Shown piece after piece: positions 23,088 to 64,000 of a stretch of DNA of 64,000 nucleotides (position 1 is its first letter; each line of letters opens with the position of its first letter). This DNA is from Cinnamomum chago. Lineage: Eukaryota; Streptophyta; Magnoliopsida; Laurales; Lauraceae. A program made the position numbers and the translations under genes. The stretch is taken from the NCBI GenBank assembly GCA_038049695.1, contig CP142461.1:26171001-26235000 (forward strand). Direction: 5' to 3'. The notes beneath the pieces were generated by a model, which saw only the letters and a list, made by a program, of their open reading frames with translations, had not been told where the DNA came from and did no database searches.

Positions 23088-23149
23088 TTTTAGCCTTTTT
23101 ACACGTAAAACTTCCTAAAGCGTTTACCAAACCCAAGATTCACCCGAAA

Positions 23150-23165
23150 CCCGTTTCCAACCGAA
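23150..23165 (-). other. CENP-B-box-like site with one extra base (example)
   Basis: CCCG-TT-T-CCAAC-CGAA resembles the reverse complement of the mammalian CENP-B box (CCCGNNTNNNNCGAA), except that the spacer before CGAA is five bases rather than four. The motif recurs in eight of ten monomers and is missing from B3 and A5. The extra base makes true CENP-B recognition doubtful. Confidence 0.25.
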
Positions 23166-23250
23166 AAGAATGTCGAAATAACCTACAGTGCGCATCCCAG
23201 CCCAGAATCTCTTCAATTGGATTTCAAGGCGTAAGACTAGACTACGACAC

Positions 23251-24866: not shown

Positions 24867-25188
24867 TTGAAACTTTATTTTCTATTAAAGCTCGATCCTT
24901 GAGTTTTCTAGAAGGAGTATTTGCACCGAGGGTCGTATGAAACATATAGTATAGTGAACAATTTCGCATAGATACATTGATTGTGTTTTCGTGCAGAGGT
25001 TTCGTACAACGCCCCCGAAGTTCGGGTTTTAGCCTTTTCAGACGTAAGACATCCTGAAGTGTTTACCAAACCCAAGATTCACATGAAACCCGTTTCAAAC
25101 CGAAAAGAATCTCGAAATAACCTACAACGCGCATCTCAGCCAGAATCTCTTCAATTGGATTTCGACGCGTAAGACTAGAGTACGGCAC
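24867..25188 (+). repeat. Monomer A6 (reference copy, 322 bp)
   Basis: Type A. Diagnostics: head 'ttgaaactttatt', 'gtatgaaacatatagtatag', 'tagtgaac', 'gtaagacatcc', 'cacatgaaaccc', 'cagccagaat' (one C short, giving 322 bp), 'tcgacgcg' and 'tacggcac'. It ends the HOR and is followed by A1. Confidence 0.93.
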
Positions 25189-28100: not shown

Positions 28101-28417
28101 ACTTTATTTTCTATTAAAGCTCGATCCTTGAGTTTTCTAGAAGGAGTATTTGCACCGAGGGTCGTATGAAACATATAGTATAGTGAACAATTTCGCATAG
28201 ATACATTGATTGTGTTTTCGTGCAGAGGTTTCGTACAACGCCCCCGAAGTTCGGGTTTTAGCCTTTTCAGACGTAAGACATCCTGAAGTGTTTACCAAAC
28301 CCAAGATTCACATGAAACCCGTTTCAAACCGAAAAGAATCTCGAAATAACCTACAACGCGCATCTCAGCCAGAATCTCTTCAATTGGATTTCGACGCGTA
28401 AGACTAGAGTACGGCAC
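25189..28417 (+). repeat. HOR unit 9, ten-mer
   Basis: Central-block ten-mer. One private change noticed: C-to-T at 25661 in B1 ('gcatctgaag' for 'gcatccgaag'), at a CpG. Confidence 0.95.
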
Positions 28418-31400: not shown

Positions 31401-31646
31401 CATATAGTATAGTGAACAATTTCGCATAGATACATTGATTGTGTTTTCGTGCAGAGGTTTCGTACAACGCCCCCGAAGTTCGGGTTTTAGCCTTTTCAGA
31501 CGTAAGACATCCTGAAGTGTTTACCAAACCCAAGATTCACATGAAACCCGTTTCAAACCGAAAAGAATCTCGAAATAACCTACAACGCGCATCTCAGCCA
31601 GAATCTCTTCAATTGGATTTCGACGCGTAAGACTAGAGTACGGCAC
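28418..31646 (+). repeat. HOR unit 10, ten-mer
   Basis: Central-block ten-mer; no private change noticed against unit 8. Confidence 0.95.
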
Positions 31647-34600: not shown

Positions 34601-34875
34601 GGAGTATTTGCACCGAGGGTCGTATGAAACATATAGTATAGTGAACAATTTCGCATAGATACATTGATTGTGTTTTCGTGCAGAGGTTTCGTACAACGCC
34701 CCCGAAGTTCGGGTTTTAGCCTTTTCAGACGTAAGACATCCTGAAGTGTTTACCAAACCCAAGATTCACATGAAACCCGTTTCAAACCGAAAAGAATCTC
34801 GAAATAACCTACAACGCGCATCTCAGCCAGAATCTCTTCAATTGGATTTCGACGCGTAAGACTAGAGTACGGCAC
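31647..34875 (+). repeat. HOR unit 11, ten-mer
   Basis: Central-block ten-mer; no private change noticed against unit 8. Confidence 0.95.
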
Positions 34876-37800: not shown

Positions 37801-38104
37801 TTAAAGCTCGATCCTTGAGTTTTCTAGAAGGAGTATTTGCACCGAGGGTCGTATGAAACATATAGTATAGTGAACAATTTCGCATAGATACATTGATTGT
37901 GTTTTCGTGCAGAGGTTTCGTACAACGCCCCCGAAGTTCGGGTTTTAGCCTTTTCAGACGTAAGACATCCTGAAGTGTTTACCAAACCCAAGATTCACAT
38001 GAAACCCGTTTCAAACCGAAAAGAATCTCGAAATAACCTACAACGCGCATCTCAGCCAGAATCTCTTCAATTGGATTTCGACGCGTAAGACTAGAGTACG
38101 GCAC
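34876..38104 (+). repeat. HOR unit 12, ten-mer
   Basis: Central-block ten-mer; no private change noticed against unit 8. Confidence 0.95.
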
Positions 38105-41100: not shown

Positions 41101-41333
41101 GAACAATTTCGCATAGATACATTGACTGTGTTTTCGTGCAGAGGTTTCGTACAACGCGCCCGAAGTTCGGGTTTTAGCCTTTTCAGACGTAAGACATCCT
41201 GAAGTGTTTACCAAACCCAAGATTCACATGAAACCCGTTTCAAACCGAAAAGAATCTCGAAATAACCTACAATGCGCATCTCAGCCAGAATCTCTTCAAT
41301 TGGATTTCGACGCGTAAGACTAGAGTACGACAC
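38105..41333 (+). repeat. HOR unit 13, ten-mer, transitional to right block
   Basis: A1 to B4 are central-block type with private changes: A3 'gtttgcaacc', B2 'tcaactgg', and a double CC-to-AA at 40570-40571 in A5, which breaks the otherwise invariant 'aaacccaagattcac' core. Its A6 (from 41012) is the first right-block form: 'ttgactgtg', 'acgcgccc', 'acaatgcg' and 'tacgacac'. Confidence 0.94.
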
Positions 41334-44300
41334 TTGAAACCCTATTTCCTATTAAAGCCTGATCCTAGAGTTTTCTAGAAGGAGTATTTCCACCGAGGGT
41401 CGCATGAAACACATAGTAGAGTCAACAGTTTCGCATATATACATTGATTGTGTTTTCGTGCAAAGGTTTCGTACAACGCGCCTGAAGTTCGGGTTTTAGC
41501 GTTTTCAGACGTAAAACTTCATGAAGTGTTTACCAAACCCAAGATTCACCCGACACCAGTTTCAAACCGAAAAGAATCTCGAAATAACCTACAGTGCGCA
41601 TCTCAGCCCAGAATCTCTTCAATTGGATTTCGAGGCGTAAGACTAGAGTACGACACTTGAAACCCTTTTTTCTTTTAAAAATGGATCCCGTAGTTTTCTA
41701 GAAGGAGTATTTGGACCAAGAGTCGCATGAAACACATTGTAGAGTCAACAACTTCGTAAAGCTACATTCTTTGAGTTTTCATACAAACGTTCCGTATGAC
41801 GCATCCGAAGTTCGACTTTTAGCCTTTTCAGTCACAGAACTCCCTGAAGTGTTTACAAAACCCAAGATTCACCCGAAACCCGTTTTAAAACGAAAAGAAT
41901 CTCGAAATAACCTACAATGCGCAACTCAGCCCCGAATCCTTTCAATTGGATTTCGAGGCGTAAGACTAGAGTACGACACTTGAAACCTTATTTTATATTA
42001 AAGCTCAATCCTAGAGTTTTCTAGAAGGAGTTTTTGCACCGAGGGTTGCGTGAAACACTTATTATAGTCAACAATTTCGCATAGATACATTGATTGTGTT
42101 TTCAGGCAAAGGTTTCGTACAACGCGCCCGAAGTTCGGGTTTAGCCTTTTCAGACGTAAAACTTCCTGAAGTGTTTACCAAACCCAAGATTCACATGTAA
42201 CCCGTTTCAAACCGAAAAGAATCTCGAAATAACCTACAATGCGCAACTCAGTCCAGAAACCTTTCAATTGGATTTCGAGGCGTAAGACTAGAGTACGACA
42301 CTTGAAATCTTATTTCCTATTAAAGCCCGATCCTAGAGTTTTCTAGAAGGAGTATTTTTACCGAGGGTCGTATGAAACACATAGTATAGTCAACAATTTC
42401 GCTTAGATACAATGATTGTGTTTTCGTGCAGAGGTTTCGTACAACGCGCCCGAAGTTCGGGTTTTAGCCTTTTTACACGTAAAACTTCCTAAAGCGTTTA
42501 CCAAACCCAAGATTCACCCGAAACCCGTTTCCAACCGAAAAGAATGTCGAAATAACCTACAGTGCGCATCCCAGCCCAGAATCTCTTCAATTGGATTTCA
42601 AGGCGTAAGACTAGACTACGACACTTAAAACCCTTTTTTCTTTTAAAACTCGATCCCGGAGTTTTCTAGAAGGAGTATTTGGACCGAGAGTCGCTTGAAA
42701 CACATAGTTGAGTCAACAACTTCGTAAAGCTCCATTGATTGAGTTTTCGTACAGAAGTTCCGTACGAGTCTTCCGAAGTTCGACCTTTAGCCTTTTTAGT
42801 CGCAGAACTCCCTGAAGTGTTTACCAAACCCAAGATTCACCCGAAACCCGTTTCAAACCGAAAAGAATGCCGAAATAACCTGCAATGCACAACTCAGCCC
42901 AGAATCCTTTCAATTGGATTTCGAGGCGTAAGACTAGAGAACGACACTTGAATCCTTATTTTCTATTAAAGCTCGATCCTGGAGTTTTCTAGATGGAGTA
43001 TTTGCACCGAGAGTCGAATGAAACACATAGTATAGTCAACAATTTAACATAATTACATTGATTGTGTTTTCGTGCAGAGGTTTCGTACAACTCGCTGAAG
43101 TTCGGGTTTTAGCCTTTTCAGACGTAAAACTTCCTGAAGTGTTTACCAAACCCAAGATTCACCCGAAACCCGTTTCAAACCGAAAAGAATATCGAATTAA
43201 CCAACAATGCGCATCTCAGCCCAGAATCTTTTCAATTGGATTTCGAGACGTAAGACTAGAGTACGACACTTGAAACCCTTTTTTCTTTTAAAACTCGATC
43301 CCGGAGTTTTCTAGAAGAGGTATTTGGACCGAGAGTCGCAAGAAACACATAGTAGAGTTAACAACTTCGTAAAGCTACATTGATTGAGTTTTCCTACAGA
43401 AGTTCCGTACGACGCTTCCGAAGTTCGACTTTTTAGCCTTTTCAGTCCCAAAATTCCCTGAAGTGTTTACCAAACCCAAGATTCACCCGAAAGCATTTTC
43501 AAACTGAAAAGAATCTCGAAATAACCTACAAGGCGCAACTCAGCCCAGAATCATTTCAATTGGATTTCGGGGCGTAAAACTAGAGTACAACACTTGAAAC
43601 CTTATTTTCTATTAAAGCTCGATCCTAGAGTTCTCTAAAAGGAGTATTTGCACCGAGGGTCGCATGAAACACATAGTATAGTCAACAATTTCGCATAGAT
43701 ACATTGATTGTGTTTTCGTGCAGAGGTTTCGTACAACGCGCTCGAAGTTCTAGTTTTAGCCGTTTCAATCGTAAAACTTCCTACAGTATTTCCCAAACCC
43801 AAGATTCACCCGAAACCCATTTCAAGCCGAAAAGAATCTCGAAATAACCTATAATGCGCAACGCAGCCCAGAATCTCTTCAATTGGATTTCGAGGCGTAA
43901 GACTAGAGTACGACACTTGAAACCCTTTTTTCTTTTAAAACTCGATCGCGGAGTTTTCTAGAAGGAGTATTTGGACTGAGGGTCGCATGAAACACATAGT
44001 AGAGTCAAAAACTTCGTAAAGCTACATTGATTGAGTTTTCATACAGAAGTTCTGTACGATGCTTCCGAAGTTCGACTTTTAGCGTTTTCTAGAGGCAGAA
44101 CTCCCTGAAGTGTTTACCAAACCCAAGATTCACCCGAAACCCGTTTCAAACCGAAATGAATCTCGAAATAACCTACAATGCGCAACTCAGACCACAGTCC
44201 TTTCAATAGGATTTCGAGGCGTAAGACTAGAGTACGGCACTTGAAACTTTATTTTCTATTAAAGCTCGATCCTTGAGTTTTCTAGAAGGAGTATTTGCAC

Positions 44301-44562
44301 CGAGGGTCGTATGAAACATATAGTATAGTGAACAATTTCGCATAGATACATTGACTGTGTTTTCGTGCAGAGGTTTCGTACAACGCCCCCGAAGTTCGGG
44401 TTTTAGCCTTTTCAGACGTAAGACATCCTGAAGTGTTTACCAAACCCAAGATTCACATGAAACCCGTTTCAAACCGAAAAGAATCTCGAAATAACCTACA
44501 ATGCGCATCTCAGCCAGAATCTCTTCAATTGGATTTCGACGCGTAAGACTAGAGTACGGCAC
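41334..44562 (+). repeat. HOR unit 14, ten-mer
   Basis: First unit with the A1 head 'gcctgatcctag' and A1 'gtgcaaagg'. B3 reads 'acatagtagagtt' in place of 'acatactagagtt'. Units 17-19 share the last two features, while units 15-16 do not. Private changes: A2 'agaaacctttc', B2 'acgagtcttcc' and B2 'aatgcacaac' (G-to-A at 42889). Confidence 0.94.
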
Positions 44563-47500
44563 TTGAAACCCTATTTCCTATTAAAGCCTGATCCTAGAGT
44601 TTTCTAGAAGGAGTATTTCCACCGAGGGTCGCATGAAACACATAGTAGAGTCAACAGTTTCGCATATATACATTGATTGTGTTTTCGTGCAGAGGTTTCG
44701 TACAACGCGCCTGAAGTTCGGGTTTTAGCGTTTTCAGACGTAAAACTTCATGAAGTGTTTACCAAACCCAAGATTCACCCGACACCAGTTTCAAACCGAA
44801 AAGAATCTCGAAATAACCTACAGTGCGCATCTCAGCCCAGAATCTCTTCAATTGGATTTCGAGGCGTAAGACTAGAGTACGACACTTGAAACCCTTTTTT
44901 CTTTTAAAAATGGATCCCGTAGTTTTCTAGAAGGAGTATTTGGACCAAGAGTCGCATGAAACACATTGTAGAGTCAACAACTTCGTAAAGCTACATTCTT
45001 TGAGTTTTCATACAAACGTTCCGTATGACGCATCCGAAGTTCGACTTTTAGCCTTTTCAGTCACAGAACTCCCTGAAGTGTTTACAAAACCCAAGATTCA
45101 CCCGAAACCCGTTTTAAAACGAAAAGAATCTCGAAATAACCTACAATGCGCAACTCAGCCCCGAATCCTTTCAATTGGATTTCGAGGCGTAAGACTAGAG
45201 TACGACACTTGAAACCTTATTTTATATTAAAGCTCAATCCTAGAGTTTTCTAGAAGGAGTTTTTGCACCGAGGGTTGCGTGAAACACTTATTATAGTCAA
45301 CAATTTCGCATAGATACATTGATTGTGTTTTCAGGCAAAGGTTTCGTACAACGCGCCCGAAGTTCGGGTTTAGCCTTTTCAGACGTAAAACTTCTTGAAG
45401 TGTTTACCAAACCCAAGATTCACATGTTACCCGTTTCAAACCGAAAAGAATCTCGAAATAACCTACAATGCGCAACTCAGTCCAGAATCCTTTCAATTGG
45501 ATTTCGAGGCGTAAGACTAGAGTACGACACTTGAAATCTTATTTCCTATTAAAGCCCGATCCTAGAGTTTTCTAGAAGGAGTATTTTTACCGAGGGTCGT
45601 ATGAAACACATAGTATAGTCAACAATTTCGCTTAGATACAATGATTGTGTTTTCGTGCAGAGGTTTCGTACAACGCGCCCGAAGTTCGGGTTTTAGCCTT
45701 TTTACACGTAAAACTTCCTAAAGCGTTTACCAAACCCAAGATTCACCCGAAACCCGTTTCCAACCGAAAAGAATGTCGAAATAACCTACAGTGCGCATCC
45801 CAGCCCAGAATCTCTTCAATTGGATTTCAAGGCGTAAGACTAGACTACGACACTTAAAACCCTTTTTTCTTTTAAAACTCGATCCCGGAGTTTTCTAGAA
45901 GGAGTATTTGGACCGAGAGTCGCTTGAAACACATAGTTGAGTCAACAACTTCGTAAAGCTCCATTGATTGAGTTTTCGTACAGAAGTTCCGTACGACTCT
46001 TCCGAAGTTCGACCTTTAGCCTTTTTAGTCGCAGAACTCCCTGAAGTGTTTACCAAACCCAAGATTCACCCGAAACCCGTTTCAAACCGAAAAGAATGCC
46101 GAAATAACCTGCAATGCGCAACTCAGCCCAGAATCCTTTCAATTGGATTTCGAGGCGTAAGACTAGAGAACGACACTTGAATCCTTATTTTCTATTAAAG
46201 CTCGATCCTGGAGTTTTCTAGATGGAGTATTTGCACCGAGAGTCGAATGAAACACATAGTATAGTCAACAATTTAACATAATTACATTGATTGTGTTTTC
46301 GTGCAGAGGTTTCGTACAACTCGCTGAAGTTCGGGTTTTAGCCTTTTCAGACGTAAAACTTCCTGAAGTGTTTACCAAACCCAAGATTCACCCGAAACCC
46401 GTTTCAAACCGAAAAGAATATCGAATTAACCAACAATGCGCATCTCAGCCCAGAATCTCTTCAATTGGATTTCGAGGCGTAACACTAGAGTACGACACTT
46501 GAAACCCTTTTTTCTTTTAAAACTCGATCGCGGAGTTTTCTAGAAGAGGAATTTGGACCGAGAGTCGCAAGAAACACATACTAGAGTTAACAACTTCGTA
46601 AAGCTACATTGATTGAGTTTTCCTACAGAAGTTCCGTACGACGCTTCCGAAGTTCGACTTTTTAGCCTTTTCAGTCCCAAAATTCCCTGAAGAGTTTACC
46701 AAACCCAAGATTCACCCGAAAGCATTTTCAAACTGAAAAGAATCTCGAAATAACCTACAAGGCGCAACTCAGCCCAGAATCATTTCAATTGGATTTCGAG
46801 GCGTAAGACTAGAGTACGACACTTGAAACCTTATTTTCTATTAAAGCTCGATCCTAGAGTTCTCTAAAAGGAGTATTTGCACCGAGGGTCGCATGAAACA
46901 CATAGTATAGTCAACAATTTCGCATAGATACATTGATTGTGTTTTCGTGCAGAGGTTTCGTACAACGCGCTCGAAGTTCTAGTTTTAGCCGTTTCAATCG
47001 TAAAACTTCCTACAGTATTTCCCAAACCCAAGATTCACCCGAAACCCATTTCAAGCCGAAAAGAATCTCGAAATAACCTATAATGCGCAACGCAGCCCAG
47101 AATCTCTTCAATTGGATTTCGAGGCGTAAGACTAGAGTACGACACTTGAAACCCTTTTTTCTTTTAAAACTCGATCGCGGAGTTTTCTAGAAGGAGTATT
47201 TGGACTGAGGGTCGCATGAAACACATAGTAGAGTCAAAAACTTCGTAAAGCTACATTGATTGAGTTTTCATACAGAAGTTCTGTACGATGCTTCCGAAGT
47301 TCGACTTTTAGCGTTTTCTAGAGGCAGAACTCCCTGAAGTGTTTACCAAACCCAAGATTCACCCGAAACCCGTTTCAAACCGAAATGAATCTCGAAATAA
47401 CCTACAATGCGCAACTCAGACCACAGTCCTTTCAATAGGATTTCGAGGCGTAAGACTAGAGTACGGCACTTGAAACTTTATTTTCTATTAAAGTTCGATC

Positions 47501-47791
47501 CTTGAGTTTTCTAGAAGGAGTATTTGCACCGAGGGTCGTATGAAACATATAGTATAGTGAACAATTTCGCATAGATACATTGATTGTGTTTTCGTGCAGA
47601 GGTTTCGTACAACGCGCCCGAAGTTCGGGTTTTAGCCTTTTCAGACGTAAGACATCCTGAAGTGTTTACCAAACCCAAGATTCACATGAAACCCGTTTCA
47701 AACCGAAAAGAATCTCGAAATAACCTACAATGCGCATCTCAGCCAGAATCTCTTCAATTGGATTTCGACGCGTAAGACTAGAGTACGACAC
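44563..47791 (+). repeat. HOR unit 15, ten-mer with hybrid A4/A5 and B4/B3 monomers
   Basis: The end of A4 is A5-like ('agaatctcttc' and 'tcgaggcg', diagnostic bases 46459 and 46477). The next monomer begins as B4 ('cgatcgcgg', 46530) and continues as B3 ('agaggaat'). Its B3 tail is also replaced ('tcgaggcgtaagactagagtacgacac' split over 46797-46823, where B3 has 'ggggcgtaaaactag' and 'tacaacac'). Other private changes: A2 'cttcttgaag' and 'catgttaccc' (which removes the A2 stop), B3 'gaagagttt' and A6 'aaagttcg'. Confidence 0.93.
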
Positions 47792-50700
47792 TTGAAACCC
47801 TATTTCCTATTAAAGCCTGATCCTAGAGTTTTCTAGAAGGAGTATTTCCACCGAGGGTCGCATGAAACACATAGTAGAGTCAACAGTTTCGCATATATAC
47901 ATTGATTGTGTTTTCGTGCAGAGGTTTCGTACAACGCGCCTGAAGTTCGGGTTTTAGCGTTTTCAGACGTAAAACTTCATGAAGTGTTTACCAAACCCAA
48001 GATTCACCCGACACCAGTTTCAAACCGAAAAGAATCTCGAAATAACCTACAGTGCGCATCTCAGCCCAGAATCTCTTCAATTGGATTTCGAGGCGTAAGA
48101 CTAGAGTACGACACTTGAAACCCTTTTTTCTTTTAAAAATGGATCCCGTAGTTTTCTAGAAGGAGTATTTGGACCAAGAGTCGCATGAAACACATTGTAG
48201 AGTCAACAACTTCGTAAAGCTACATTCTTTGAGTTTTCATACAAACGTTCCGTATGACGCATCCGAAGTTCGACTTTTAGCCTTTTCAGTCACAGAACTC
48301 CCTGAAGTGTTTACAAAACCCAAGATTCACCCGAAACCCGTTTTAAAACGAAAAGAATCTCGAAATAACCTACAATGCGCAACTCAGCCCCGAATCCTTT
48401 CAATTGGATTTCGAGGCGTAAGACTAGAGTACGACACTTGAAACCTTATTTTATATTAAAGCTCAATCCTAGAGTTTTCTAGAAGGAGTTTTTGCACCGA
48501 GGGTTGCGTGAAACACTTATTATAGTCAACAATTTCGCATAGATACATTGATTGTGTTTTCAGGCAAAGGTTTCGTACAACGCGCCCGAAGTTCGGGTTT
48601 AGCCTTTTCAGACGTAAAACTTCCTGAAGTGTTTACCAAACCCAAGATTCACATGTAACCTGTTTCAAACCGAAAAGAATCTCGAAATAACCTACAATGC
48701 GCAACTCAGTCCAGAATCCTTTCAATTGGATTTCGAGGCGTAAGACTAGAGTACGACACTTGAAATCTTATTTCCTATTAAAGCCCGATCCTAGAGTTTT
48801 CTAGAAGGAGTATTTTTACCGAGGGTCGTATGAAACACATAGTATAGTCAACAATTTCGCTTAGATACAATGATTGTGTTTTCGTGCAGAGGTTTCGTAC
48901 AACGCGCCCGAAGTTCGGGTTTTAGCCTTTTTACACGTAAAACTTCCTAAAGCGTTTACCAAACCCAAGATTCACCCGAAACCCGTTTCCAACCGAAAAG
49001 AATGTCGAAATAACCTACAGTGCGCATCCCAGCCCAGAATCTCTTCAATTGGATTTCAAGGCGTAAGACTAGACTACGACACTTAAAACCCTTTTTTCTT
49101 TTAAAACTCGATCCCGGAGTTTTCTAGAAGGAGTATTTGGACCGAGAGTCGCTTGAAACACATAGTTGAGTCAACAACTTCGTAAAGCTCCATTGATTGA
49201 GTTTTCGTACAGAAGTTCCGTACGACTCTTCCGAAGTTCGACCTTTAGCCTTTTTAGTCGCAGAACTCCCTGAAGTGTTTACCAAACCCAAGATTCACCC
49301 GAAACCCGTTTCAAACCGAAAAGAATGCCGAAATAACCTACAATGCGCAACTCAGCCCAGAATCCTTTCAATTGGATTTCGAGGCGTAAGACTAGAGAAC
49401 GACACGTGAATCCTTATTTTCTATTAAAGCTCGATCCTGGAGTTTTCTAGATGGAGTATTTGCACCGAGAGTCGAATGAAACACATAGTATAGTCAACAA
49501 TTTAACATAATTACATTGATTGTGTTTTCGTGCAGAGGTTTCGTACAACTCGCTGAAGTTCGGGTTTTAGCCTTTTCAGACGTAAAACTTCCTGAAGTGT
49601 TTACCAAACCCAAGATTCACCCGAAACCCGTTTCAAACCGAAAAGAATATCGAATTAACCAACAATGCGCATCTCAGCCCAGAATCTCTTCAATTGGATT
49701 TCGAGACGTAAGACTAGAGTACGACACTTGAAACCCTTTTTTCTTTTAAAACTCGATCGCGGAGTTTTCTAGAAGAGGAATTTGGACCGAGAGTCGCAAG
49801 AAACACATACTAGAGTTAACAACTTCGTAAAGCTACATTGATTGAGTTTTCCTACAGAAGTTCCGTACGACGCTTCCGAAGTTCGACTTTTTAGCCTTTT
49901 CAGTCCCAAAATTCCCTGAAGTGTTTACCAAACCCAAGATTCACCCGAAAGCATTTTCAAACTGAAAAGAATATCGAAATAACCTACAAGGCGCAACTCA
50001 GCCCAGAATCATTTCAATTGGATTTCGGGGCGTAAAACTAGAGTACAACACTTGAAACCTTATTTTCTATTAAAGCTCGATCCTAGAGTTCTCTAAAAGG
50101 AGTATTTGCACCGAGGGTCGCATGAAACACATAGTATAGTCAACAATTTCGCATAGATACATTGATTGTGTTTTCGTGCAGAGGTTTCGTACAACGCGCT
50201 CGAAGTTCTAGTTTTAGCCGTTTCAATCGTAAAACTTCCTACAGTATTTCCCAAACCCAAGATTCACCCGAAACCCATTTCAAGCCGAAAAGAATCTCGA
50301 AATAACCTATAATGCGCAACGCAGCCCAGAATCTCTTCAATTGGATTTCGAGGCGTAAGACTAGAGTACGACACTTGAAACCCTTTTTTCTTTTAAAACT
50401 CGATCGCGGAGTTTTCTAGAAGGAGTATTTGGACTGAGGGTCGCATGAAACACATAGTAGAGTCAAAAACTTCGTAAAGCTACATTGATTGAGTTTTCAT
50501 ACAGAAGTTCTGTACGATGCTTCCGAAGTTCGACTTTTAGCGTTTTCTAGAGGCAGAACTCCCTGAAGTGTTTACCAAACCCAAGATTCACCCGAAACCC
50601 GTATCAAACCGAAATGAATCTCGAAATAACCTACAATGCGCAACTCAGACCACAGTCCTTTCAATAGGATTTCGAGGCGTAAGACTAGAGTACGGCACTT

Positions 50701-51020
50701 GAAACTTTATTTTCTATTAAAGCTCGATCCTTGAGTTTTCTAGAAGGAGTATTTGCACCGAGGGTCGTATGAAACATATAGTATAGTGAACAATTTCGCA
50801 TAGATACATTGACTGTGTTTTCGTGCAGAGGTTTCGTACAACGCGCCCGAAGTTCGGGTTTTAGCCTTTTCAGACGTAAGACATCCTGAAGTGTTTACCA
50901 AACCCAAGATTCACATGAAACCCGTTTCAAACCGAAAAGAATCTCGAAATAACCTACAATGCGCATCTCAGCCAGAATCTCTTCAATTGGATTTCGACGC
51001 GTAAGACTAGAGTACGACAC
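47792..51020 (+). repeat. HOR unit 16, ten-mer with B4/B3 hybrid
   Basis: B3 again starts B4-like ('cgatcgcgg') and continues 'agaggaat'. The A4 tail has A5-like 'tctctt' but A4-like 'gagacg', so the exchanged tract is patchy. Private changes: C-to-T at 48661 in A2, 'gacacgtgaatcc' at the B2/A4 junction, 'gaatatcgaaat' in B3 and 'ccgtatcaaacc' in B4. Confidence 0.93.
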
Positions 51021-53603
51021 TTGAAACCCTATTTCCTATTAAAGCCTGATCCTAGAGTTTTCTAGAAGGAGTATTTCCACCGAGGGTCGCATGAAACACA
51101 TAGTAGAGTCAACAGTTTCGCATATATACATTGATTGTGTTTTCGTGCAAAGGTTTCGTACAACGCGCCTGAAGTTCGGGTTTTAGCGTTTTCAGACGTA
51201 AAACTTCATGAAGTGTTTACCAAACCCAAGATTCACCCGACACCAGTTTCAAACCGAAAAGAATCTCGAAATAACCTACAGTGCGCATCTCAGCCCAGAA
51301 TCTCTTCAATTGGATTTCGAGGCGTAAGACTAGAGTACGACACTTGAAACCCTTTTTTCTTTTAAAAATGGATCCCGTAGTTTTCTAGAAGGAGTATTTG
51401 GACCAAGAGTCGCATGAAACACATTGTAGAGTCAACAACTTCGTAAAGCTACATTCTTTGAGTTTTCATACAAACGTTCCGTATGACGCATCCGAAGTTC
51501 GACTTTTAGCCTTTTCAGTCACAGAACTCCCTGAAGTGTTTACAAAACCCAAGATTCACCCGAAACCCGTTTTAAAACGAAAAGAATCTCGAAATAACCT
51601 ACAATGCGCAACTCAGCCCCGAATCCTTTCAATTGGATTTCGAGGCGTAAGACTAGAGTACGACACTTGAAACCTTATTTTATATTAAAGCTCAATCCTA
51701 GAGTTTTCTAGAAGGAGTTTTTGCACCGAGGGTTGCGTGAAACACTTATTATAGTCAACAATTTCGCATAGATACATTGATTGTGTTTTCAGGCAAAGGT
51801 TTCGTACAACGCGCCCGAAGTTCGGGTTTAGCCTTTTCAGACGTAAAACTTCCTGAAGTGTTTACCAAACCCAAGATTCACATGTAACCCGTTTCAAACC
51901 GAAAAGAATCTCGAAATAACCTACAATGCGCAACTCAGTCCAGAATCCTTTCAATTGGATTTCGAGGCGTAAGACTAGAGTACGACACTTGAAATCTTAT
52001 TTCCTATTAAAGCCCGATCCTAGAGTTTTCTAGAAGGAGTATTTTTACCGAGGGTCGTATGAAACACATAGTATAGTCAACAATTTCGCTTAGATACAAT
52101 GATTGTGTTTTCGTGCAGAGGTTTCGTACAACGCGCCCGAAGTTCGGGTTTTAGCCTTTTTACACGTAAAACTTCCTAAAGCGTTTACCAAACCCAAGAT
52201 TCACCCGAAACCCGTTTCCAACCGAAAAGAATGTCGAAATAACCTACAGTGCGCATCCCAGCCCAGAATCTCTTCAATTGGATTTCAAGGCGTAAGACTA
52301 GACTACGACACTTAAAACCCTTTTTTCTTTTAAAACTCGATCCCGGAGTTTTCTAGAAGGAGTATTTGGACCGAGAGTCGCTTGAAACACATAGTTGAGT
52401 CAACAACTTCGTAAAGCTCCATTGATTGAGTTTTCGTACAGAAGTTCCGTACGACTCTTCCGAAGTTCGACCTTTAGCCTTTTTAGTCGCAGAACTCCCT
52501 GAAGTGTTTACCAAACCCAAGATTCACCCGAAACCCGTTTCAAACCGAAAAGAATGCCGAAATAACCTACAATGCGCAACTCAGCCCAGAATCCTTTCAA
52601 TTGGATTTCGAGGCGTAAGACTAGAGAACGACACTTGAATCCTTATTTTCTATTAAAGCTCGATCCTGGAGTTTTCTAGATGGAGTATTTGCACCGAGAG
52701 TCGAATGAAACACATAGTATAGTCAACAATTTAACATAATTACATTGATTGTGTTTTCGTGCAGAGGTTTCGTACAACTCGCTGAAGTTCGGGTTTTAGC
52801 CTTTTCAGACGTAAAACTTCCTGAAGTGTTTACCAAACCCAAGATTCACCTGAAACCCGTTTCAAACCGAAAAGAATATCGAATTAACCAACAATGCGCA
52901 TCTCAGCCCAGAATCTTTTCAATTGGAATTCGAGACGTAAGACTAGAGTACGACACTTGAAACCCTTTTTTCTTTTAAAACTCGATCCCGGAGTTTTCTA
53001 GAAGAGGTATTTGGACCGAGAGTCGCAAGAAACACATAGTAGAGTTAACAACTTCGTAAAGCTACATTGATTGAGTTTTCCTACAGAAGTTCCGTACGAC
53101 GCTTCCGAAGTTCGACTTTTTAGCCTTTTCAGTCCCAAAATTCCCTGAAGTGTTTACCAAACCCAAGATTCACCCGAAAGCATTTTCAAACTGAAAAGAA
53201 TCTCGAAATAACCTACAAGGCGCAACTCAGCCCAGAATCATTTCAATTGGATTTCGGGGCGTAAAACTAGAGTACAACACTTGAAACCTTATTTTCTATT
53301 AAAGCTCGATCCTAGAGTTCTCTAAAAGGAGTATTTGCACCGAGGGTCGCATGAAACACATAGTATAGTCAACAATTTCGCATAGATACATTGATTGTGT
53401 TTTCGTGCAGAGGTTTCGTACAACGCGCTCGAAGTTCTAGTTTTAGCCGTTTCAATCGTAAAACTTCCTACAGTATTTCCCAAACCCAAGATTCACCCGA
53501 AACCCATTTCAAACCGAAAAGAATCTCGAAATAACCTATAATGCGCAACGCAGCCCAGAATCTCTTCAATTGGATTTCGAGGCGTAAGACTAGAGTACGA
53601 CAC

Positions 53604-54250
53604 TTGAAACCCTTTTTTCTTTTAAAACTCGATCGCGGAGTTTTCTAGAAGAGGAATTTGGACCGAGAGTCGCAAGAAACACATACTAGAGTTAACAACT
53701 TCGTAAAGCTACATTGATTGAGTTTTCCTACAGAAGTTCCGTACGACGCTTCCGAAGTTCGACTTTTTAGCCTTTTCAGTCCCAAAATTCCCTGAAGTGT
53801 TTACCAAACCCAAGATTCACCCGAAAGCATTTTCAAACTGAAAAGAATCTCGAAATAACCTACAAGGCGCAACTCAGCCCAGAATCATTTCAATTGGATT
53901 TCGGGGCGTAAAACTAGAGTACAACACTTGAAACCTTATTTTCTATTAAAGCTCGATCCTAGAGTTCTCTAAAAGGAGTATTTGCACCGAGGGTCGCATG
54001 AAACACATAGTATAGTCAACAATTTCGCATAGATACATTGATTGTGTTTTCGTGCAGAGGTTTCGTACAACGCGCTCGAAGTTCTAGTTTTAGCCGTTTC
54101 AATCGTAAAACTTCCTACAGTATTTCCCAAACCCAAGATTCACCCGAAACCCATTTCAAGCCGAAAAGAATCTCGAAATAACCTATAATGCGCAACGCAG
54201 CCCAGAATCTCTTCAATTGGATTTCGAGGCGTAAGACTAGAGTACGACAC
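53604..54250 (+). repeat. Extra B3'-A5 dimer (647 bp) in unit 17
   Basis: Inserted dimer whose first monomer is a hybrid. Its head is B4 ('cgatcgcgg', G at 53635) and its body is B3 ('agaggaat', 'gcaagaaac', 'actagagttaac'). This is the product expected from one unequal crossover between B4 and B3 in the shared stretch at 53636-53651. Confidence 0.92.
53636..53651 (+). other. B4/B3 exchange interval containing TTCTAGAA
   Basis: Sixteen bases (CGGAGTTTTCTAGAAG) are identical in B4 and B3. They are flanked by a B4-specific G on the left and B3-specific 'aggaat' on the right, so the switch occurred inside them. The same hybrid head occurs in every extra dimer of units 17-19 and in units 15-16. 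Confidence 0.8.
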
Positions 54251-54896
54251 TTGAAACCCTTTTTTCTTTTAAAACTCGATCGCGGAGTTTTCTAGAAGGA
54301 GTATTTGGACTGAGGGTCGCATGAAACACATAGTAGAGTCAAAAACTTCGTAAAGCTACATTGATTGAGTTTTCATACAGAAGTTCTGTACGATGCTTCC
54401 GAAGTTCGACTTTTAGCGTTTTCTAGAGGCAGAACTCCCTGAAGTGTTTACCAAACCCAAGATTCACCCGAAACCCGTTTCAAACCGAAATGAATCTCGA
54501 AATAACCTACAATGCGCAACTCAGACCACAGTCCTTTCAATAGGATTTCGAGGCGTAAGACTAGAGTACGGCACTTGAAACTTTATTTTCTATTAAAGCT
54601 CGATCCTTGAGTTTTCTAGAAGGAGTATTTGCACCGAGGGTCGTATGAAACATATAGTATAGTGAACAATTTCGCATAGATACATTGACTGTGTTTTCGT
54701 GCAGAGGTTTCGTACAACGCGCCCGAAGTTTGGGTTTTAGCCTTTTCAGACGTAAGACATCCTGAAGTGTTTACCAAACCCAAGATTCACATGAAACCCG
54801 TTTCAAACCGAAAAGAATCTCGAAATAACCTACAATGCGCATCTCAGCCAGAATCTCTTCAATTGGATTTCGACGCGTAAGACTAGAGTACGACAC

Positions 54897-57800
54897 TTGA
54901 AACCCTATTTCCTATTAAAGCCTGATCCTAGAGTTTTCTAGAAGGAGTATTTCCACCGAGGGTCGCATGAAACACATAGTAGAGTCAACAGTTTCGCATA
55001 TATACATTGATTGTGTTTTCGTGCAAAGGTTTCGTACAACGCGCCTGAAGTTCGGGTTTTAGCGTTTTCAGACGTAAAACTTCATGAAGTGTTTACCAAA
55101 CCCAAGATTCACCCGACACCAGTTTCAAACCGAAAAGAATCTCGAAATAACCTACAGTGCGCATCTCAGCCCAGAATCTCTTCAATTGGATTTCGAGGCG
55201 TAAGACTAGAGTACGACACTTGAAACCCTTTTTTCTTTTAAAAATGGATCCCGTAGTTTTCTAGAAGGAGTATTTGGACCAAGAGTCGCATGAAACACAT
55301 TGTAGAGTCAACAACTTCGTAAAGCTACATTCTTTGAGTTTTCATACAAACGTTCCGTATGACGCATCCGAAGTTCGACTTTTAGCCTTTTCAGTCACAG
55401 AACTCCCTGAAGTGTTTACAAAACCCAAGATTCACCCGAAACCCGTTTTAAAACGAAAAGAATCTCGAAATAACCTACAATGCGCAACTCAGCCCCGAAT
55501 CCTTTCAATTGGATTTCGAGGCGTAAGACTAGAGTACGACACTTGAAACCTTATTTTATATTAAAGCTCAATCCTAGAGTTTTCTAGAAGGAGTTTTTGC
55601 ACCGAGGGTTGCGTGAAACACTTATTATAGTCAACAATTTCGCATAGATACATTGATTGTGTTTTCAGGCAAAGGTTTCGTACAACGCGCCCGAAGTTCG
55701 GGTTTAGCCTTTTCAGACGTAAAACTTCCTGAAGTGTTTACCAAACCCAAGATTCACATGTAACCCGTTTCAAACCGAAAAGAATCTCGAAATAACCTAC
55801 AATGCGCAACTCAGTCCAGAATCCTTTCAATTGGATTTCGAGGCGTAAGACTAGAGTACGACACTTGAAATCTTATTTCCTATTAAAGCCCGATCCTAGA
55901 GTTTTCTAGAAGGAGTATTTTTACCGAGGGTCGTATGAAACACATAGTATAGTCAACAATTTCGCTTAGATACAATGATTGTGTTTTCGTGCAGAGGTTT
56001 CGTACAACGCGCCCGAAGTTCGGGTTTTAGCCTTTTTACACGTAAAACTTCCTAAAGCGTTTACCAAACCCAAGATTCACCCGAAACCCGTTTCCAACCG
56101 AAAAGAATGTCGAAATAACCTACAGTGCGCATCCCAGCCCAGAATCTCTTCAATTGGATTTCAAGGCGTAAGACTAGACTACGACACTTAAAACCCTTTT
56201 TTCTTTTAAAACTCGATCCCGGAGTTTTCTAGAAGGAGTATTTGGACCGAGAGTCGCTTGAAACACATAGTTGAGTCAACAACTTCGTAAAGCTCCATTG
56301 ATTGAGTTTTCGTACAGAAGTTCCGTACGACTCTTCCGAAGTTCGACCTTTAGCCTTTTTAGTCGCAGAACTCCCTGAAGTGTTTACCAAACCCAAGATT
56401 CACCCGAAACCCGTTTCAAACCGAAAAGAATGCCGAAATAACCTACAATGCGCAACTCAGCCCAGAATCCTTTCAATTGGATTTCGAGGCGTAAGACTAG
56501 AGAACGACACTTGAATCCTTATTTTCTATTAAAGCTCGATCCTGGAGTTTTCTAGATGGAGTATTTGCACCGAGAGTCGAATGAAACACATAGTATAGTC
56601 AACAATTTAACATAATTACATTGATTGTGTTTTCGTGCAGAGGTTTCGTACAACTCGCTGAAGTTCGGGTTTTAGCCTTTTCAGACGTAAAACTTCCTGA
56701 AGTGTTTACCAAACCCAAGATTCACCTGAAACCCGTTTCAAACCGAAAAGAATATCGAATTAACCAACAATGCGCATCTCAGCCCAGAATCTTTTCAATT
56801 GGAATTCGAGACGTAAGACTAGAGTACGACACTTGAAACCCTTTTTTCTTTTAAAACTCGATCCCGGAGTTTTCTAGAAGAGGTATTTGGACCGAGAGTC
56901 GCAAGAAACACATAGTAGAGTTAACAACTTCGTAAAGCTACATTGATTGAGTTTTCCTACAGAAGTTCCGTACGACGCTTCCGAAGTTCGACTTTTTAGC
57001 CTTTTCAGTCCCAAAATTCCCTGAAGTGTTTACCAAACCCAAGATTCACCCGAAAGCATTTTCAAACTGAAAAGAATCTCGAAATAACCTACAAGGCGCA
57101 ACTCAGCCCAGAATCATTTCAATTGGATTTCGGGGCGTAAAACTAGAGTACAACACTTGAAACCTTATTTTCTATTAAAGCTCGATCCTAGAGTTCTCTA
57201 AAAGGAGTATTTGCACCGAGGGTCGCATGAAACACATAGTATAGTCAACAATTTCGCATAGATACATTGATTGTGTTTTCGTGCAGAGGTTTCGTACAAC
57301 GCGCTCGAAGTTCTAGTTTTAGCCGTTTCAATCGTAAAACTTCCTACAGTATTTCCCAAACCCAAGATTCACCCGAAACCCATTTCAAACCGAAAAGAAT
57401 CTCGAAATAACCTATAATGCGCAACGCAGCCCAGAATCTCTTCAATTGGATTTCTAGGCGTAAGACTAGAGTACGACACTTGAAACCCTTTTTTCTTTTA
57501 AAACTCGATCGCGGAGTTTTCTAGAAGAGGAATTTGGACCGAGAGTCGCAAGAAACACATACTAGAGTTAACAACTTCGTAAAGCTACATTGATTGAGTT
57601 TTCCTACAGAAGTTCCGTACGACGCTTCCGAAGTTCGACTTTTTAGCCTTTTCAGTCCCAAAATTCCCTGAAGTGTTTACCAAACCCAAGATTCACCCGA
57701 AAGCATTTTCAAACTGAAAAGAATCTCGAAATAACCTACAAGGCGCAACTCAGCCCAGAATCATTTCAATTGGATTTCGGGGCGTAAAACTAGAGTACAA

Positions 57801-60066
57801 CACTTGAAACCTTATTTTCTATTAAAGCTCGATCCTAGAGTTCTCTAAAAGGAGTATTTGCACCGAGGGTCGCATGAAACACATAGTATAGTCAACAATT
57901 TCGCATAGATACATTGATTGTGTTTTCGTGCAGAGGTTTCGTACAACGCGCTCGAAGTTCTAGTTTTAGCCGTTTCAATCGTAAAACTTCCTACAGTATT
58001 TCCCAAACCCAAGATTCACCCGAAACCCATTTCAAACCGAAAAGAATCTCGAAATAACCTATAATGCGCAACGCAGCCCAGAATCTCTTCAATTGGATTT
58101 CGAGGCGTAAGACTAGAGTACGACACTTGAAACCCTTTTTTCTTTTAAAACTCGATCGCGGAGTTTTCTAGAAGTGGAATTTGGACCGAGAGTCGCAAGA
58201 AACACATACTAGAGTTAACAACTTCGTAAAGCTACATTGATTGAGTTTTCCTACAGAAGTTCCGTACGACGCTTCCGAAGTTCGACTTTTTAGCCTTTTC
58301 AGTCCCAAAATTCCCTGAAGTGTTTACCAAACCCAAGATTCACCCGAAAGCATTTTCAAACTGAAAAGAATCTCAAAATAACCTACAAGGCGCAACTCAG
58401 CCCAGAATCATTTCAATTGGATTTCGGGGCGTAAAACTAGAGTACAACACTTGAAACCTTATTTTCTATTAAAGCTCGATCCTAGAGTTCTCTAAAAGGA
58501 GTATTTGCACCGAGGGTCGCATGAAACACATAGTATAGTCAACAATTTCGCATAGATACATTGATTGTGTTTTCGTGCAGAGGTTTCGTACAACGCGCTC
58601 GAAGTTCTAGTTTTAGCCGTTTCAATCGTAAAACTTCCTACAGTATTTCCCAAACCCAAGATTCACCCGAAACCCATTTCAAGCCGAAAAGAATCTCGAA
58701 ATAACCTATAATGCGCAACGCAGCCCAGAATCTCTTCAATTGGATTTCGAGGCGTAAGACTAGAGTACGACACTTGAAACCCTTTTTTCTTTTAAAACTC
58801 GATCGCGGAGTTTTCTAGAAGAGGAATTTGGACCGAGAGTCGCAAGAAACACATACTAGAGTTAACAACTTCGTAAAGCTACATTGATTGAGTTTTCCTA
58901 CAGAAGTTCCGTACGACGCTTCCGAAGTTCGACTTTTTAGCCTTTTCAGTCCCAAAATTCCCTGAAGTGTTTACCAAACCCAAGATTCACCCGAAAGCAT
59001 TTTCAAACTGAAAAGAATCTCGAAATAACCTACAAGGCGCAACTCAGCCCAGAATCATTTCAATTGGATTTCGGGGCGTAAAACTAGAGTACAACACTTG
59101 AAACCTTATTTTCTATTAAAGCTCGATCCTAGAGTTCTCTAAAAGGAGTATTTGCACCGAGGGTCGCATGAAACACATAGTATAGTCAACAATTTCGCAT
59201 AGATACATTGATTGTGTTTTCGTGCAGAGGTTTCGTACAACGCGCTCGAAGTTCTAGTTTTAGCCGTTTCAATCGTAAAACTTCCTACAGTATTTCCCAA
59301 ACCCAAGATTCACCCGAAACCCATTTCAAGCCGAAAAGAATCTCGAAATAACCTATAATGCGCAACGCAGCCCAGAATCTCTTCAATTGGATTTCGAGGC
59401 GTAAGACTAGAGTACGACACTTGAAACCCTTTTTTCTTTTAAAACTCGATCGCGGAGTTTTCTAGAAGGAGTATTTGGACTGAGGGTCGCATGAAACACA
59501 TAGTAGAGTCAAAAACTTCGTAAAGCTACATTGATTGAGTTTTCATACAGAAGTTCTGTACGATGCTTCCGAAGTTCGACTTTTAGCGTTTTCTAGAGGC
59601 AGAACTCCCTGAAGTGTTTACCAAACCCAAGATTCACCCGAAACCCGTTTCAAACCGAAATGAATCTCGAAATAACCTACAATGCGCAACTCAGACCACA
59701 GTCCTTTCAATAGGATTTCGAGGCGTAAGACTAGAGTACGGCACTTGAAACTTTATTTTCTATTAAAGCTCGATCCTTGAGTTTTCTAGAAGGAGTATTT
59801 GCACCGAGCGTCGTATGAAACATATAGTATAGTGAACAATTTCGCATAGATACATTGACTGTGTTTTCGTGCAGAGGTTTCGTACAACGCGCCCGAAGTT
59901 CGGGTTTTAGCCTTTTCAGACGTAAGACATCCTGAAGTGTTTACCAAACCCAAGATTCACATGAAACCCGTTTCAAACCGAAAAGAATCTCGAAATAACC
60001 TACAATGCGCATCTCAGCCAGAATCTCTTCAATTGGATTTCGACGCGTAAGACTAGAGTACGACAC
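54897..60066 (+). repeat. HOR unit 18, sixteen-mer with four B3-A5 dimers
   Basis: Length 5,170 bp, the ten-mer plus three times 647. Order: A1-B1-A2-A3-B2-A4-[B3-A5]-[B3'-A5]x3-B4-A6, with B3/B3' starts at 56833, 57480, 58127 and 58774, B4 at 59421 and A6 at 59745. A4 shares 'cacctgaaac' and GAATTC with units 17 and 19. A6 has 'gagcgtcg' in place of 'gagggtcg'. Confidence 0.95.
57480..59420 (+). repeat. Three extra B3'-A5 dimers in unit 18
   Basis: Three consecutive 647-bp dimers, each opening with the B4/B3 hybrid head. A5 copies 1 and 2 of the unit have 'ttcaaaccg' and copies 3 and 4 have 'ttcaagccg', so the expansion copied both A5 alleles of unit 17. Private marks: 'tttctaggcg' in the first A5, 'gaagtggaat' and 'tctcaaaat' (A at 58375) in the third dimer's B3'. 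Confidence 0.93.
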
Positions 60067-63000
60067 TTGAAACCCTATTTCCTATTAAAGCCTGATCCTA
60101 GAGTTTTCTAGAAGGAGTATTTCCACCGAGGGTCGCATGAAACACATAGTAGAGTCAACAGTTTCGCATATATACATTGATTGTGTTTTCGTGCAAAGGT
60201 TTCGTACAACGCGCCTGAAGTTCGGGTTTTAGCGTTTTCAGACGTAAAACTTCATGAAGTGTTTACCAAACCCAAGATTCACCCGACACCAGTTTCAAAC
60301 CGAAAAGAATCTCGAAATAACCTACAGTGCGCATCTCAGCCCAGAATCTCTTCAATTGGATTTCGAGGCGTAAGACTAGAGTACGACACTTGAAACCCTT
60401 TTTTCTTTTAAAAATGGATCCCGTAGTTTTCTAGAAGGAGTATTTGGACCAAGAGTCGCATGAAACACATTGTAGAGTCAACAACTTCGTAAAGCTACAT
60501 TCTTTGAGTTTTCATACAAACGTTCCGTATGACGCATCCGAAGTTCGACTTTTAGCCTTTTCAGTCACAGAACTCCCTGAAGTGTTTACAAAACCCAAGA
60601 TTCACCCGAAACCCGTTTTAAAACGAAAAGAATCTCGAAATAACCTACAATGCGCAACTCAGCCCCGAATCCTTTCAATTGGATTTCGAGGCGTAAGACT
60701 AGAGTACGACACTTGAAACCTTATTTTATATTAAAGCTCAATCCTAGAGTTTTCTAGAAGGAGTTTTTGCACCGAGGGTTGCGTGAAACACTTATTATAG
60801 TCAACAATTTCGCATAGATACATTGATTGTGTTTTCAGGCAAAGGTTTCGTACAACGCGCCCGAAGTTCGGGTTTAGCCTTTTCAGACGTAAAACTTCCT
60901 GAAGTGTTTACCAAACCCAAGATTCACATGTAACCCGTTTCAAACCGAAAAGAATCTCGAAATAACCTACAATGCGCAACTCAGTCCAGAATCCTTTCAA
61001 TTGGATTTCGAGGCGTAAGACTAGAGTACGACACTTGAAATCTTATTTCCTATTAAAGCCCGATCCTAGAGTTTTCTAGAAGGAGTATTTTTACCGAGGG
61101 TCGTATGAAACACATAGTATAGTCAACAATTTCGCTTAGATACAATGATTGTGTTTTCGTGCAGAGGTTTCGTACAACGCGCCCGAAGTTCGGGTTTTAG
61201 CCTTTTTACACGTAAAACTTCCTAAAGCGTTTACCAAACCCAAGATTCACCCGAAACCCGTTTCCAACCGAAAAGAATGTCGAAATAACCTACAGTGCGC
61301 ATCCCAGCCCAGAATCTCTTCAATTGGATTTCAAGGCGTAAGACTAGACTACGACACTTAAAACCCTTTTTTCTTTTAAAACTCGATCCCGGAGTTTTCT
61401 AGAAGGAGTATTTGGACCGAGAGTCGCTTGAAACACATAGTTGAGTCAACAACTTCGTAAAGCTCCATTGATTGAGTTTTCGTACAGAAGTTCCGTACGA
61501 CTCTTCCGAAGTTCGACCTTTAGCCTTTTTAGTCGCAGAACTCCCTGAAGTGTTTACCAAACCCAAGATTCACCCGAAACCCGTTTCAAACCGAAAAGAA
61601 TGCCGAAATAACCTGCAATGCGCAACTCAGCCCAGAATCCTTTCAATTGGATTTCGAGGCGTAAGACTAGAGAACGACACTTGAATCCTTATTTTCTATT
61701 AAAGCTCGATCCTGGAGTTTTCTAGATGGAGTATTTGCACCGAGAGTCGAATGAAACACATAGTATAGTCAACAATTTAACATAATTACATTGATTGTGT
61801 TTTCGTGCAGAGGTTTCGTACAACTCGCTGAAGTTCGGGTTTTAGCCTTTTCAGACGTAAAACTTCCTGAAGTGTTTACCAAACCCAAGATTCACCTGAA
61901 ACCCGTTTCAAACCGAAAAGAATATCGAATTAACCAACAATGCGCATCTCAGCCCAGAATCTTTTCAATTGGAATTCGAGACGTAAGACTAGAGTACGAC
62001 ACTTGAAACCCTTTTTTCTTTTAAAACTCGATCCCGGAGTTTTCTAGAAGAGGTATTTGGACCGAGAGTCGCAAGAAACACATAGTAGAGTTAACAACTT
62101 CGTAAAGCTACATTGATTGAGTTTTCCTACAGAAGTTCCGTACGACGCTTCCGAAGTTCGACTTTTTAGCCTTTTCAGTCCCAAAATTCCCTGAAGTGTT
62201 TACCAAACCCAAGATTCACCCGAAAGCATTTTCAAACTGAAAAGAATCTCGAAATAACCTACAAGGCGCAACTCAGCCCAGAATCATTTCAATTGGATTT
62301 CGGGGCGTAAAACTAGAGTACAACACTTGAAACCTTATTTTCTATTAAAGCTCGATCCTAGAGTTCTCTAAAAGGAGTATTTGCACCGAGGGTCGCATGA
62401 AACACATAGTATAGTCAACAATTTCGCATAGATACATTGATTGTGTTTTCGTGCAGAGGTTTCGTACAACGCGCTCGAAGTTCTAGTTTTAGCCGTTTCA
62501 ATCGTAAAACTTCCTACAGTATTTCCCAAACCCAAGATTCACCCGAAACCCATTTCAAACCGAAAAGAATCTCGAAATAACCTATAATGCGCAACGCAGC
62601 CCAGAATCTCTTCAATTGGATTTCGAGGCGTAAGACTAGAGTACGACACTTGAAACCCTTTTTTCTTTTAAAACTCGATCGCGGAGTTTTCTAGAAGAGG
62701 AATTTGGACCGAGAGTCGCAAGAAACACATACTAGAGTTAACAACTTCGTAAAGCTACATTGATTGAGTTTTCCTACAGAAGTTCCGTACGACGCTTCCG
62801 AAGTTCGACTTTTTAGCCTTTTCAGTCCCAAAATTCCCTGAAGTGTTTACCAAACCCAAGATTCACCCGAAAGCATTTTCAAACTGAAAAGAATCTCGAA
62901 ATAACCTAGAAGGCGCAACTCAGCCCAGAATCATTTCAATTGGATTTCGGGGCGTAAAACTAGAGTACAACACTTGAAACCTTATTTTCTATTAAAGCTC

Positions 63001-64000
63001 GATCCTAGAGTTCTCTAAAAGGAGTATTTGCACCGAGGGTCGCATGAAACACATAGTATAGTCAACAATTTCGCATAGATACATTGATTGTGTTTTCGTG
63101 CAGAGGTTTCGTACAACGCGCTCGAAGTTCTAGTTTTAGCCGTTTCAATCGTAAAACTTCCTACAGTATTTCCCAAACCCAAGATTCACCCGAAACCCAT
63201 TTCAAACCGAAAAGAATCTCGAAATAACCTATAATGCGCAACGCAGCCCAGAATCTCTTCAATTGGATTTCGAGGCGTAAGACTAGAGTACGACACTTGA
63301 AACCCTTTTTTCTTTTAAAACTCGATCGCGGAGTTTTCTAGAAGAGGAATTTGGACCGAGAGTCGCAAGAAACACATACTAGAGTTAACAACTTCGTAAA
63401 GCTACATTGATTGAGTTTTCCTACAGAAGTTCCGTACGACGCTTCCGAAGTTCGACTTTTTAGCCTTTTCAGTCCCAAAATTCCCTGAAGTGTTTACCAA
63501 ACCCAAGATTCACCCGAAAGCATTTTCAAACTGAAAAGAATCTCGAAATAACCTACAAGGCGCAACTCAGCCCAGAATCATTTCAATTGGATTTCGGGGC
63601 GTAAAACTAGAGTACAACACTTGAAACCTTATTTTCTATTAAAGCTCGATCCTAGAGTTCTCTAAAAGGAGTATTTGCACCGAGGGTCGCATGAAACACA
63701 TAGTATAGTCAACAATTTCGCATAGATACATTGATTGTGTTTTCGTGCAGAGGTTTCGTACAACGCGCTCGAAGTTCTAGTTTTAGCCGTTTCAATCGTA
63801 AAACTTCCTACAGTATTTCCCAAACCCAAGATTCACCCGAAACCCATTTCAAACCGAAAAGAATCTCGAAATAACCTATAATGCGCAACGCAGCCCAGAA
63901 TCTCTTCAATTGGATTTCGAGGCGTAAGACTAGAGTACGACACTTGAAACCCTTTTTTCTTTTAAAACTCGATCGCGGAGTTTTCTAGAAGAGGAATTTG
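60067..64000 (+). repeat. HOR unit 19, partial, with at least three B3-A5 dimers
   Basis: A1-B1-A2-A3-B2-A4 are followed by B3-A5 (62003-62649), two complete B3'-A5 dimers and 57 bp of another B3'. The unit is cut by the window end. All three complete A5 copies have 'ttcaaaccg'. B2 has 'ctgcaatgcg' as in units 14 and 15, and the first B3' has 'cctagaagg' (C-to-G near 62910). Confidence 0.94.
62650..64000 (+). repeat. Extra B3'-A5 dimers running off the window
   Basis: Dimers start at 62650 and 63297, and a third extra dimer begins at 63944. Each has the B4/B3 hybrid head. Because the run continues to the last base, the true number of dimers in this unit is unknown, and the array beyond may be a pure B3-A5 dimer array. 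Confidence 0.92.

Follow-up and report, generated by a model that had tools for sequence, protein, structure and literature searches.

The question raised by this locus is whether a satellite array has been caught in the act of acquiring a new repeat period. The window (the whole stretch of DNA analysed, 64,000 nucleotides; C11:26171001-26235000) is occupied throughout by a single tandem array (TRF period 323, positions 1-63991). An earlier note had counted one, two, four and at least three copies of a 647-bp dimer in successive HOR units at its right end, and had taken this series for the birth of a new period, in progress, inside an existing ten-mer HOR. The results described below make it probable that the extra dimers form a local-nested HOR (LN-HOR) seeded by a hybrid monomer, and they do not support the recent start and steady rise first proposed.

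The window belongs to a 1.06-Gb genome of 14 contigs, and C11 measures 56.58 Mb. Exact searches with a 22-base core of the satellite gave 4175 forward matches and 1 reverse match genome-wide; among the matches listed, in contig order, one is on C2, three are on C7, one is on C8 and the others are on C11. For exact matches among those listed, the satellite appears to be nearly specific to C11 among C1-C11, such a query being blind to diverged copies elsewhere. A 36-base tag from monomer c, searched as an exact match, gave 449 forward and 0 reverse matches genome-wide; the 100 matches listed fall within 25.42-25.90 Mb of C11. Assuming one c tag per 3.2-kb unit, the array is estimated at approximately 1.45 Mb; it extends from about 25.24 to at least 26.43 Mb of C11, a position that is only suggestive of a candidate active centromere array. 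Near the left edge of the array, at C11:25.36-25.42 Mb, the 22-base core recurs at spacings of approximately 6058 bp and then approximately 2514 bp, which suggests that further HOR periods occur there. No match to the window sequence was found among plasmid records.

The window was joined to the next 200 kb on its right (264 kb in all; positions beyond 64000 continue the numbering of the window) and cut into monomers. This gave 816 monomers of 319-324 bp, 150 of them distinct, which fall into ten types by average-linkage clustering and into two classes (a, c, e and g versus b, d, f, h, i and j). At this monomer length the array is not an alpha satellite HOR, the primate monomers of which are 171 bp. 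The ten types follow one another in the order a-j-b-c-d-e-f-g-h-i to form a HOR of 3229 bp, and 76 such units were identified in the 264 kb, the last of them truncated. Monomers e and g are approximately 89% identical. To the left of the expanded region, units 2 and 4-16 are ten-mers. Units 1 and 3 (202-3108 and 6338-9244) are nine-mers lacking j, the b monomer of which fits a two-part j/b hybrid with 1 mismatch, versus 8 for b alone. The i monomers at 173958, 183645 and 186874 of the extended sequence (units 48, 51 and 52) lie 10-11 sites away from the modal i sequence and fit an i/h hybrid poorly, with 7-8 mismatches. The features of the window on which the argument turns are collected in Table 1.

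Table 1. Units, dimers and monomers at the right end of the array (positions in the window)
Feature	Positions	Strand	Remarks
Flanking array: partial stretch, then units 1-16 from 202	1..51221	+	single e-f dimer per unit
e monomer of unit 16 with 174A, candidate right-hand parent type	49606..49929	+	
Unit 17, twelve-mer a-j-b-c-d-e-f-E-f-g-h-i, 3876 bp, two f-type dimers	51222..55097	+	
First hybrid monomer E, with g sequence on the left and e sequence on the right	53482..53805	+	breakpoint at columns 154-170, or 101-170 with unit 16 e as parent
Unit 18, sixteen-mer, four f-type dimers (e-f-E-f-E-f-E-f), 5170 bp	55098..60267	+	
Three E-f dimers of unit 18 (E at 57358, 58005 and 58652)	57358..59298	+	
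Unit 19, left part, to the end of the window	60268..64000	+	full unit 60268-67378, 7111 bp, seven f-type dimers

Monomer decomposition reproduced exactly the dimer counts first reported for units 16 to 19 (1, 2, 4 and at least 3): unit 19 has three complete f monomers in the window, which ends inside the next E. The monomers labelled B3 and A5 in the earlier note are most likely the f and E of this analysis. The 647-bp length of the dimer was likewise borne out, both by the length of E-f in 32 of 33 cases and by the spacing of identical copies: a 661-bp query recovered copies at 100% identity lying 647 bp apart (e.g., C11:26245527 and 26246174), which excludes chance as the source of the repeat counts. 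The expanded zone covers 51222-112285, i.e. 61 kb, about 48 kb of which is beyond the window. Against a single f-type dimer in each of units 1-16, units 17-29 have 2, 4, 7, 4, 4, 4, 4, 4+3, 1, 1, 0, 2 and 3, unit 24 (4+3) having two dimer blocks with g-h between them. A subunit is therefore tandemly amplified inside the HOR, as e-f-E-f and so on, in units 17-24, 28 and 29, and its copy number is variable (2, 3, 4 or 7 in units 17-29), often exceeding two. Single dimers return in units 30-37 and 39-76. Unit 38 (138122-141996 of the extended sequence; C11:26309122-26312996) reads e-f-g-f-g and is a separate, independent dimer insertion; its second f is g-like in the first 61-68 columns, and a single simple exchange does not explain the unit.

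These counts bear on the proposal that dimer number grows directionally along the array, from one to two to four and on, in an expansion that has only just begun. Within the window the series does rise up to the cut unit, which reaches seven dimers when completed beyond position 64000. Further right it levels off and falls, with later counts of 4, 4, 4, 4, 4+3, 1, 1, 0, 2, 3 and 1, and a steady gradient of growth was rejected on the 200-kb rightward extension. The divergence of the dimers also stands against a recent start. The mean difference among E-f dimers is 0.374%, versus 0.286% among the canonical e-f dimers of ten-mers flanking the zone (32 of 33 and 58 of 59 compared, one of unequal length being dropped from each set). 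By this measure the E-f family is no younger than the array around it, and a young age for it was rejected. When gaps and all rows were counted, the values were 0.463% (33 E-f) versus 0.398% (73 e-f). In four sub-stretches the canonical difference was 0.340, 0.259, 0.151 and 0.122%; the backbone of the zone (units 17-24) differs by 0.196% and that of other stretches by 0.058-0.361%. Exchange with g could have inflated the diversity of E-f. On these grounds a birth in progress is very improbable. What stands of that claim is the appearance inside the ten-mer HOR of a new dimer with a hybrid monomer, together with a 16-mer that recurs in tandem.

Satellite arrays are prone to assembly error, and the extra dimers might be ascribed to mis-assembly of a collapsed or mis-joined repeat. 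The flanks do contain long exact repeats, of 10411 bp in window positions 1-51000 and of 17452 bp in 115600-264000 of the extended sequence. The longest exact repeat in the zone itself (51001-115600) is 6479 bp, a length that long reads generally exceed. Moreover, eight of the thirteen units 17-29 (18, 19, 21-24, 28 and 29) carry a variant that is unique among the 76 units, and the exact E junction described below recurs in twelve of the thirteen. Judged from these sequence features, an artefact in the zone is unlikely.

The monomer that distinguishes the added dimers is a hybrid. E was defined as the A-type monomer that comes after the first e-f in the expanded units, and 33 copies were identified, units 25 and 26 contributing one each. 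The modal sequences of e and g differ at 34 sites, at which the hybrid nature of modal E is directly visible: it agrees with g at the first 10 (columns 25, 44, 50, 56, 58, 67, 69, 83, 101 and 154) and with e at all of the other 24 (columns 171 to 307), that is, g on the left and e on the right without exception. One further site, column 174, differs in modal E from both e and g. The base found there (174A) is present in 33/33 E and in 8/73 e monomers (units 1-6, 15 and 16), and a two-part g/e fit of E has 0 mismatches when an e allele with 174A is taken as the right parent, which accounts for the odd site. The breakpoint interval can also be read off directly, and it depends on the parent: of the two e alleles tried, that of unit 2 (174A type, as in units 2-6) shares an identity tract of 16 bp at the breakpoint, and that of unit 16 shares 69 bp. 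Units 15 and 16, whose e monomers have 174A, adjoin the zone. The g/e junction is kept in 32 of the 33 E; the remaining copy, at 92907 in unit 24, has lost its g portion, and modelling it as an i/E hybrid leaves 3 mismatches, versus 11 for E alone.

E appears to have arisen locally. A 76-bp sequence across its junction has 27 exact matches genome-wide, all of them in C11:26224580-26281843; the reverse strand and a reversed control gave none. The 264 kb likewise contains 27. Confinement of the exact junction to the zone is thus a direct observation, and it indicates one local founding exchange, so that a single founding event is the probable origin of E. As an exact pattern, the 76-bp sequence skips 6 of the 33 E, which have variants inside it, and diverged E elsewhere would be equally invisible; a looser two-part pattern matched 31 of the 33 in the 264 kb. 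Searches with the 661-bp dimer gave matches of 99-100% identity in C11:26224200-26282048, among those listed.

The alleles within the e half point to the parents. This half has 174A in 33/33 E and 205C in 32/33, the exception being one of the six E of unit 19, which has 205G like the local e. Ten units contain both e and E. In nine of them (17-24 and 28) the e has 174T and 205G, and in the tenth, unit 29, it has 174T and 205C. As modal E (174A, 205C) does not agree with the e of its own unit (174T, 205G), the two parents were most likely contributed by different HOR units. This bears on simple replication slippage, or tandem duplication, inside one HOR unit. Slippage would also produce the order e-f-E-f with a hybrid junction; however, modal E differs from the e of its own unit at columns 174 and 205 in nine of ten units, and at 174 in all ten, so that later conversion would be required in addition. 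Slippage within one unit is accordingly regarded as unlikely.

The reading preferred here, an LN-HOR seeded by a hybrid, would begin with off-register recombination joining the g monomer of one HOR unit to the e monomer of another, inside the 16- or 69-bp identity tract. The resulting g/e junction would yield the hybrid E together with a unit having an extra dimer. The near-identical dimers would then permit shifted exchange or replication restart, by which dimers could be gained and lost (0 to 7 per unit), and a four-dimer version would be copied en bloc as a 16-mer. The route of recombination may have been unequal sister exchange, exchange between homologs or break-induced replication. Long homology tracts were considered as a sign of mechanism and were rejected: at six junction fits, a fraction of 0.16 to 0.58 of the columns lies in tracts at least as long, so the lengths are unexceptional and lend no statistical support to homology-driven exchange.

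The founding step might also be drawn in the opposite direction, as an intrachromatid deletion of eight monomers (approximately 2.58 kb), from g to the e of the next unit, by which two ten-mers would become a twelve-mer. This is a version of the preferred explanation from which it differs in direction alone, and the junction would be the same for deletion and duplication. In its favour, the e retained in the unit (205G) belongs to another unit type than the one that supplied the e half of E (174A), and such alleles neighbour each other to the left of the zone (205G in unit 14, 174A in units 15 and 16). However, in the dimer units 205G is found together with 94A, which unit 14 does not have, and a gain by exchange between offset units looks alike, the two being inseparable in one haplotype. 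A deletion founder is a serious possibility, if rather less than an even one.

Once formed, the dimers seem to have been propagated in blocks. Position-specific variants are directly visible in the three-E blocks: 171T in the second E, 47A in the f that follows it and 32G in the third E occur together in five of seven such blocks (18, 22, 23, 24a and 24b). Dimers two and three of unit 18 share these variants with units 22-24, and units 20 and 21 are without them. Among the seven blocks, dimers at the same position differ by 2.76 bases, those at different positions by 3.83 and those within a block by 4.00; the same-position likeness was reached by 39 of 10000 order shuffles. When units 20 and 21 were omitted, a choice made after the variants had been seen, the corresponding values were 2.27, 5.07 and 5.07, and 8 of 10000 shuffles reached the likeness. 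This pattern in the sequence indicates that the four-dimer block was copied whole, as a 16-mer of 5170 bp. Because the variants link units 18, 22, 23 and 24 only, and not 17, 19, 20 or 21, they contradict a reading of the spatial order 1-2-4 as an arrow of time, which was rejected.

Two forms of E occur at column 32, with A or G, and each fits a different g parent with 0 mismatches, so that a second g x E exchange, or conversion, is needed. One might go further and suppose that g-type and e-type monomers exchanged repeatedly off register at one preferred tract, each g x E event adding a dimer at the right end; in favour of this, the final E is one with 32G, an allele of the local g, in five of the seven blocks with three E. 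If true, repeated exchange would act as a ratchet, driven by recombination in one direction and making HOR units longer, but this reading is unlikely.

Dimers also appear to have been lost. Over the backbone compared, units 25 and 26 do not differ; both are of ten-mer length, with E in the place of e, as is expected from loss of a dimer; the boundaries d|e and f|E have 26 identical bases. Unit 27 is a five-monomer remnant, the d of which fits a d/i hybrid with 0 mismatches versus 1, a difference of a single site. The variant 309A in d is common to units 25-27, and units 25 and 26 are without the d/i junction. Units 25-27 are therefore interpreted as probable contractions.

Altered unit lengths occur elsewhere in the array as well. 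The 100 c tags listed define 99 intervals, 73 of which are of ten-mer length; a c tag lost by mutation would also lengthen an interval. In a further 40 kb to the left (30 kb at 25.64-25.70 Mb and 10 kb beside the window), a twelve-mer, a thirteen-mer and a shortened unit were seen. These show that nested variants are not restricted to the zone, whereas the exact E junction is. At C11:25676001-25696000, a twelve-mer of the form a-j-b-g*-b-c-d..., with an inserted hybrid-like g plus b, alternates with ten-mers to give a composite of approximately 7110 bp.

New satellite periods are usually inferred from end states. This locus is unusual in that much of the history of an expansion is legible at one place: the hybrid, its breakpoint interval, the likely parental alleles, the cassette and the apparent contractions all lie within well under 100 kb. 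Unequal exchange and break-induced replication have both been put forward as models (PMC8997354), and given other haplotypes or reads they could be compared here at a single locus.

The arrangement is of a kind already known, an LN-HOR containing hybrid monomers, for which human CEN1 and CEN5 provide precedents. The HiCAT paper (PMC10053651) describes the LN-HOR as a subunit tandemly amplified within a HOR, and notes that deletion can mimic a two-copy expansion. In the dimer amplification that it describes for CEN1 (D1Z7), as here, a dimer is tandemly amplified with variable copy number in an otherwise fixed HOR, and four copies are the most frequent state in both, the expanded units of this locus ranging from 2 to 7. 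Unlike the human LN-HORs of that account, which are built of 171-bp alpha satellite, this one has monomers of 319-324 bp, and its E dimers are contained within 61 kb between ordinary ten-mers. Hybrid monomers are reported to be abundant in human alpha satellite, with length roughly conserved (PMC9549924), and the nested units described for CEN5 hold such hybrids (e.g., S1C1/5/19H1L.6/4; PMC10053651). Like those, E fuses parts of two HOR monomers at unchanged length within nested units; unlike those, as described there, it has candidate parental alleles adjoining the zone and an exact junction found in the zone alone. For human chromosome 5, monomer deletions in an ancestral ten-monomer HOR have been invoked to explain the new HOR lengths that derive from it (PMC11062924). 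A ten-monomer HOR is the starting point in both cases, and here a single haplotype and 61 kb are involved. The same source describes new HORs intermixed with the relic on chromosomes 11 and 12, over more than 1 Mb and compared across haplotypes, and at this locus too new HOR units occur alongside those of the ten-mer.
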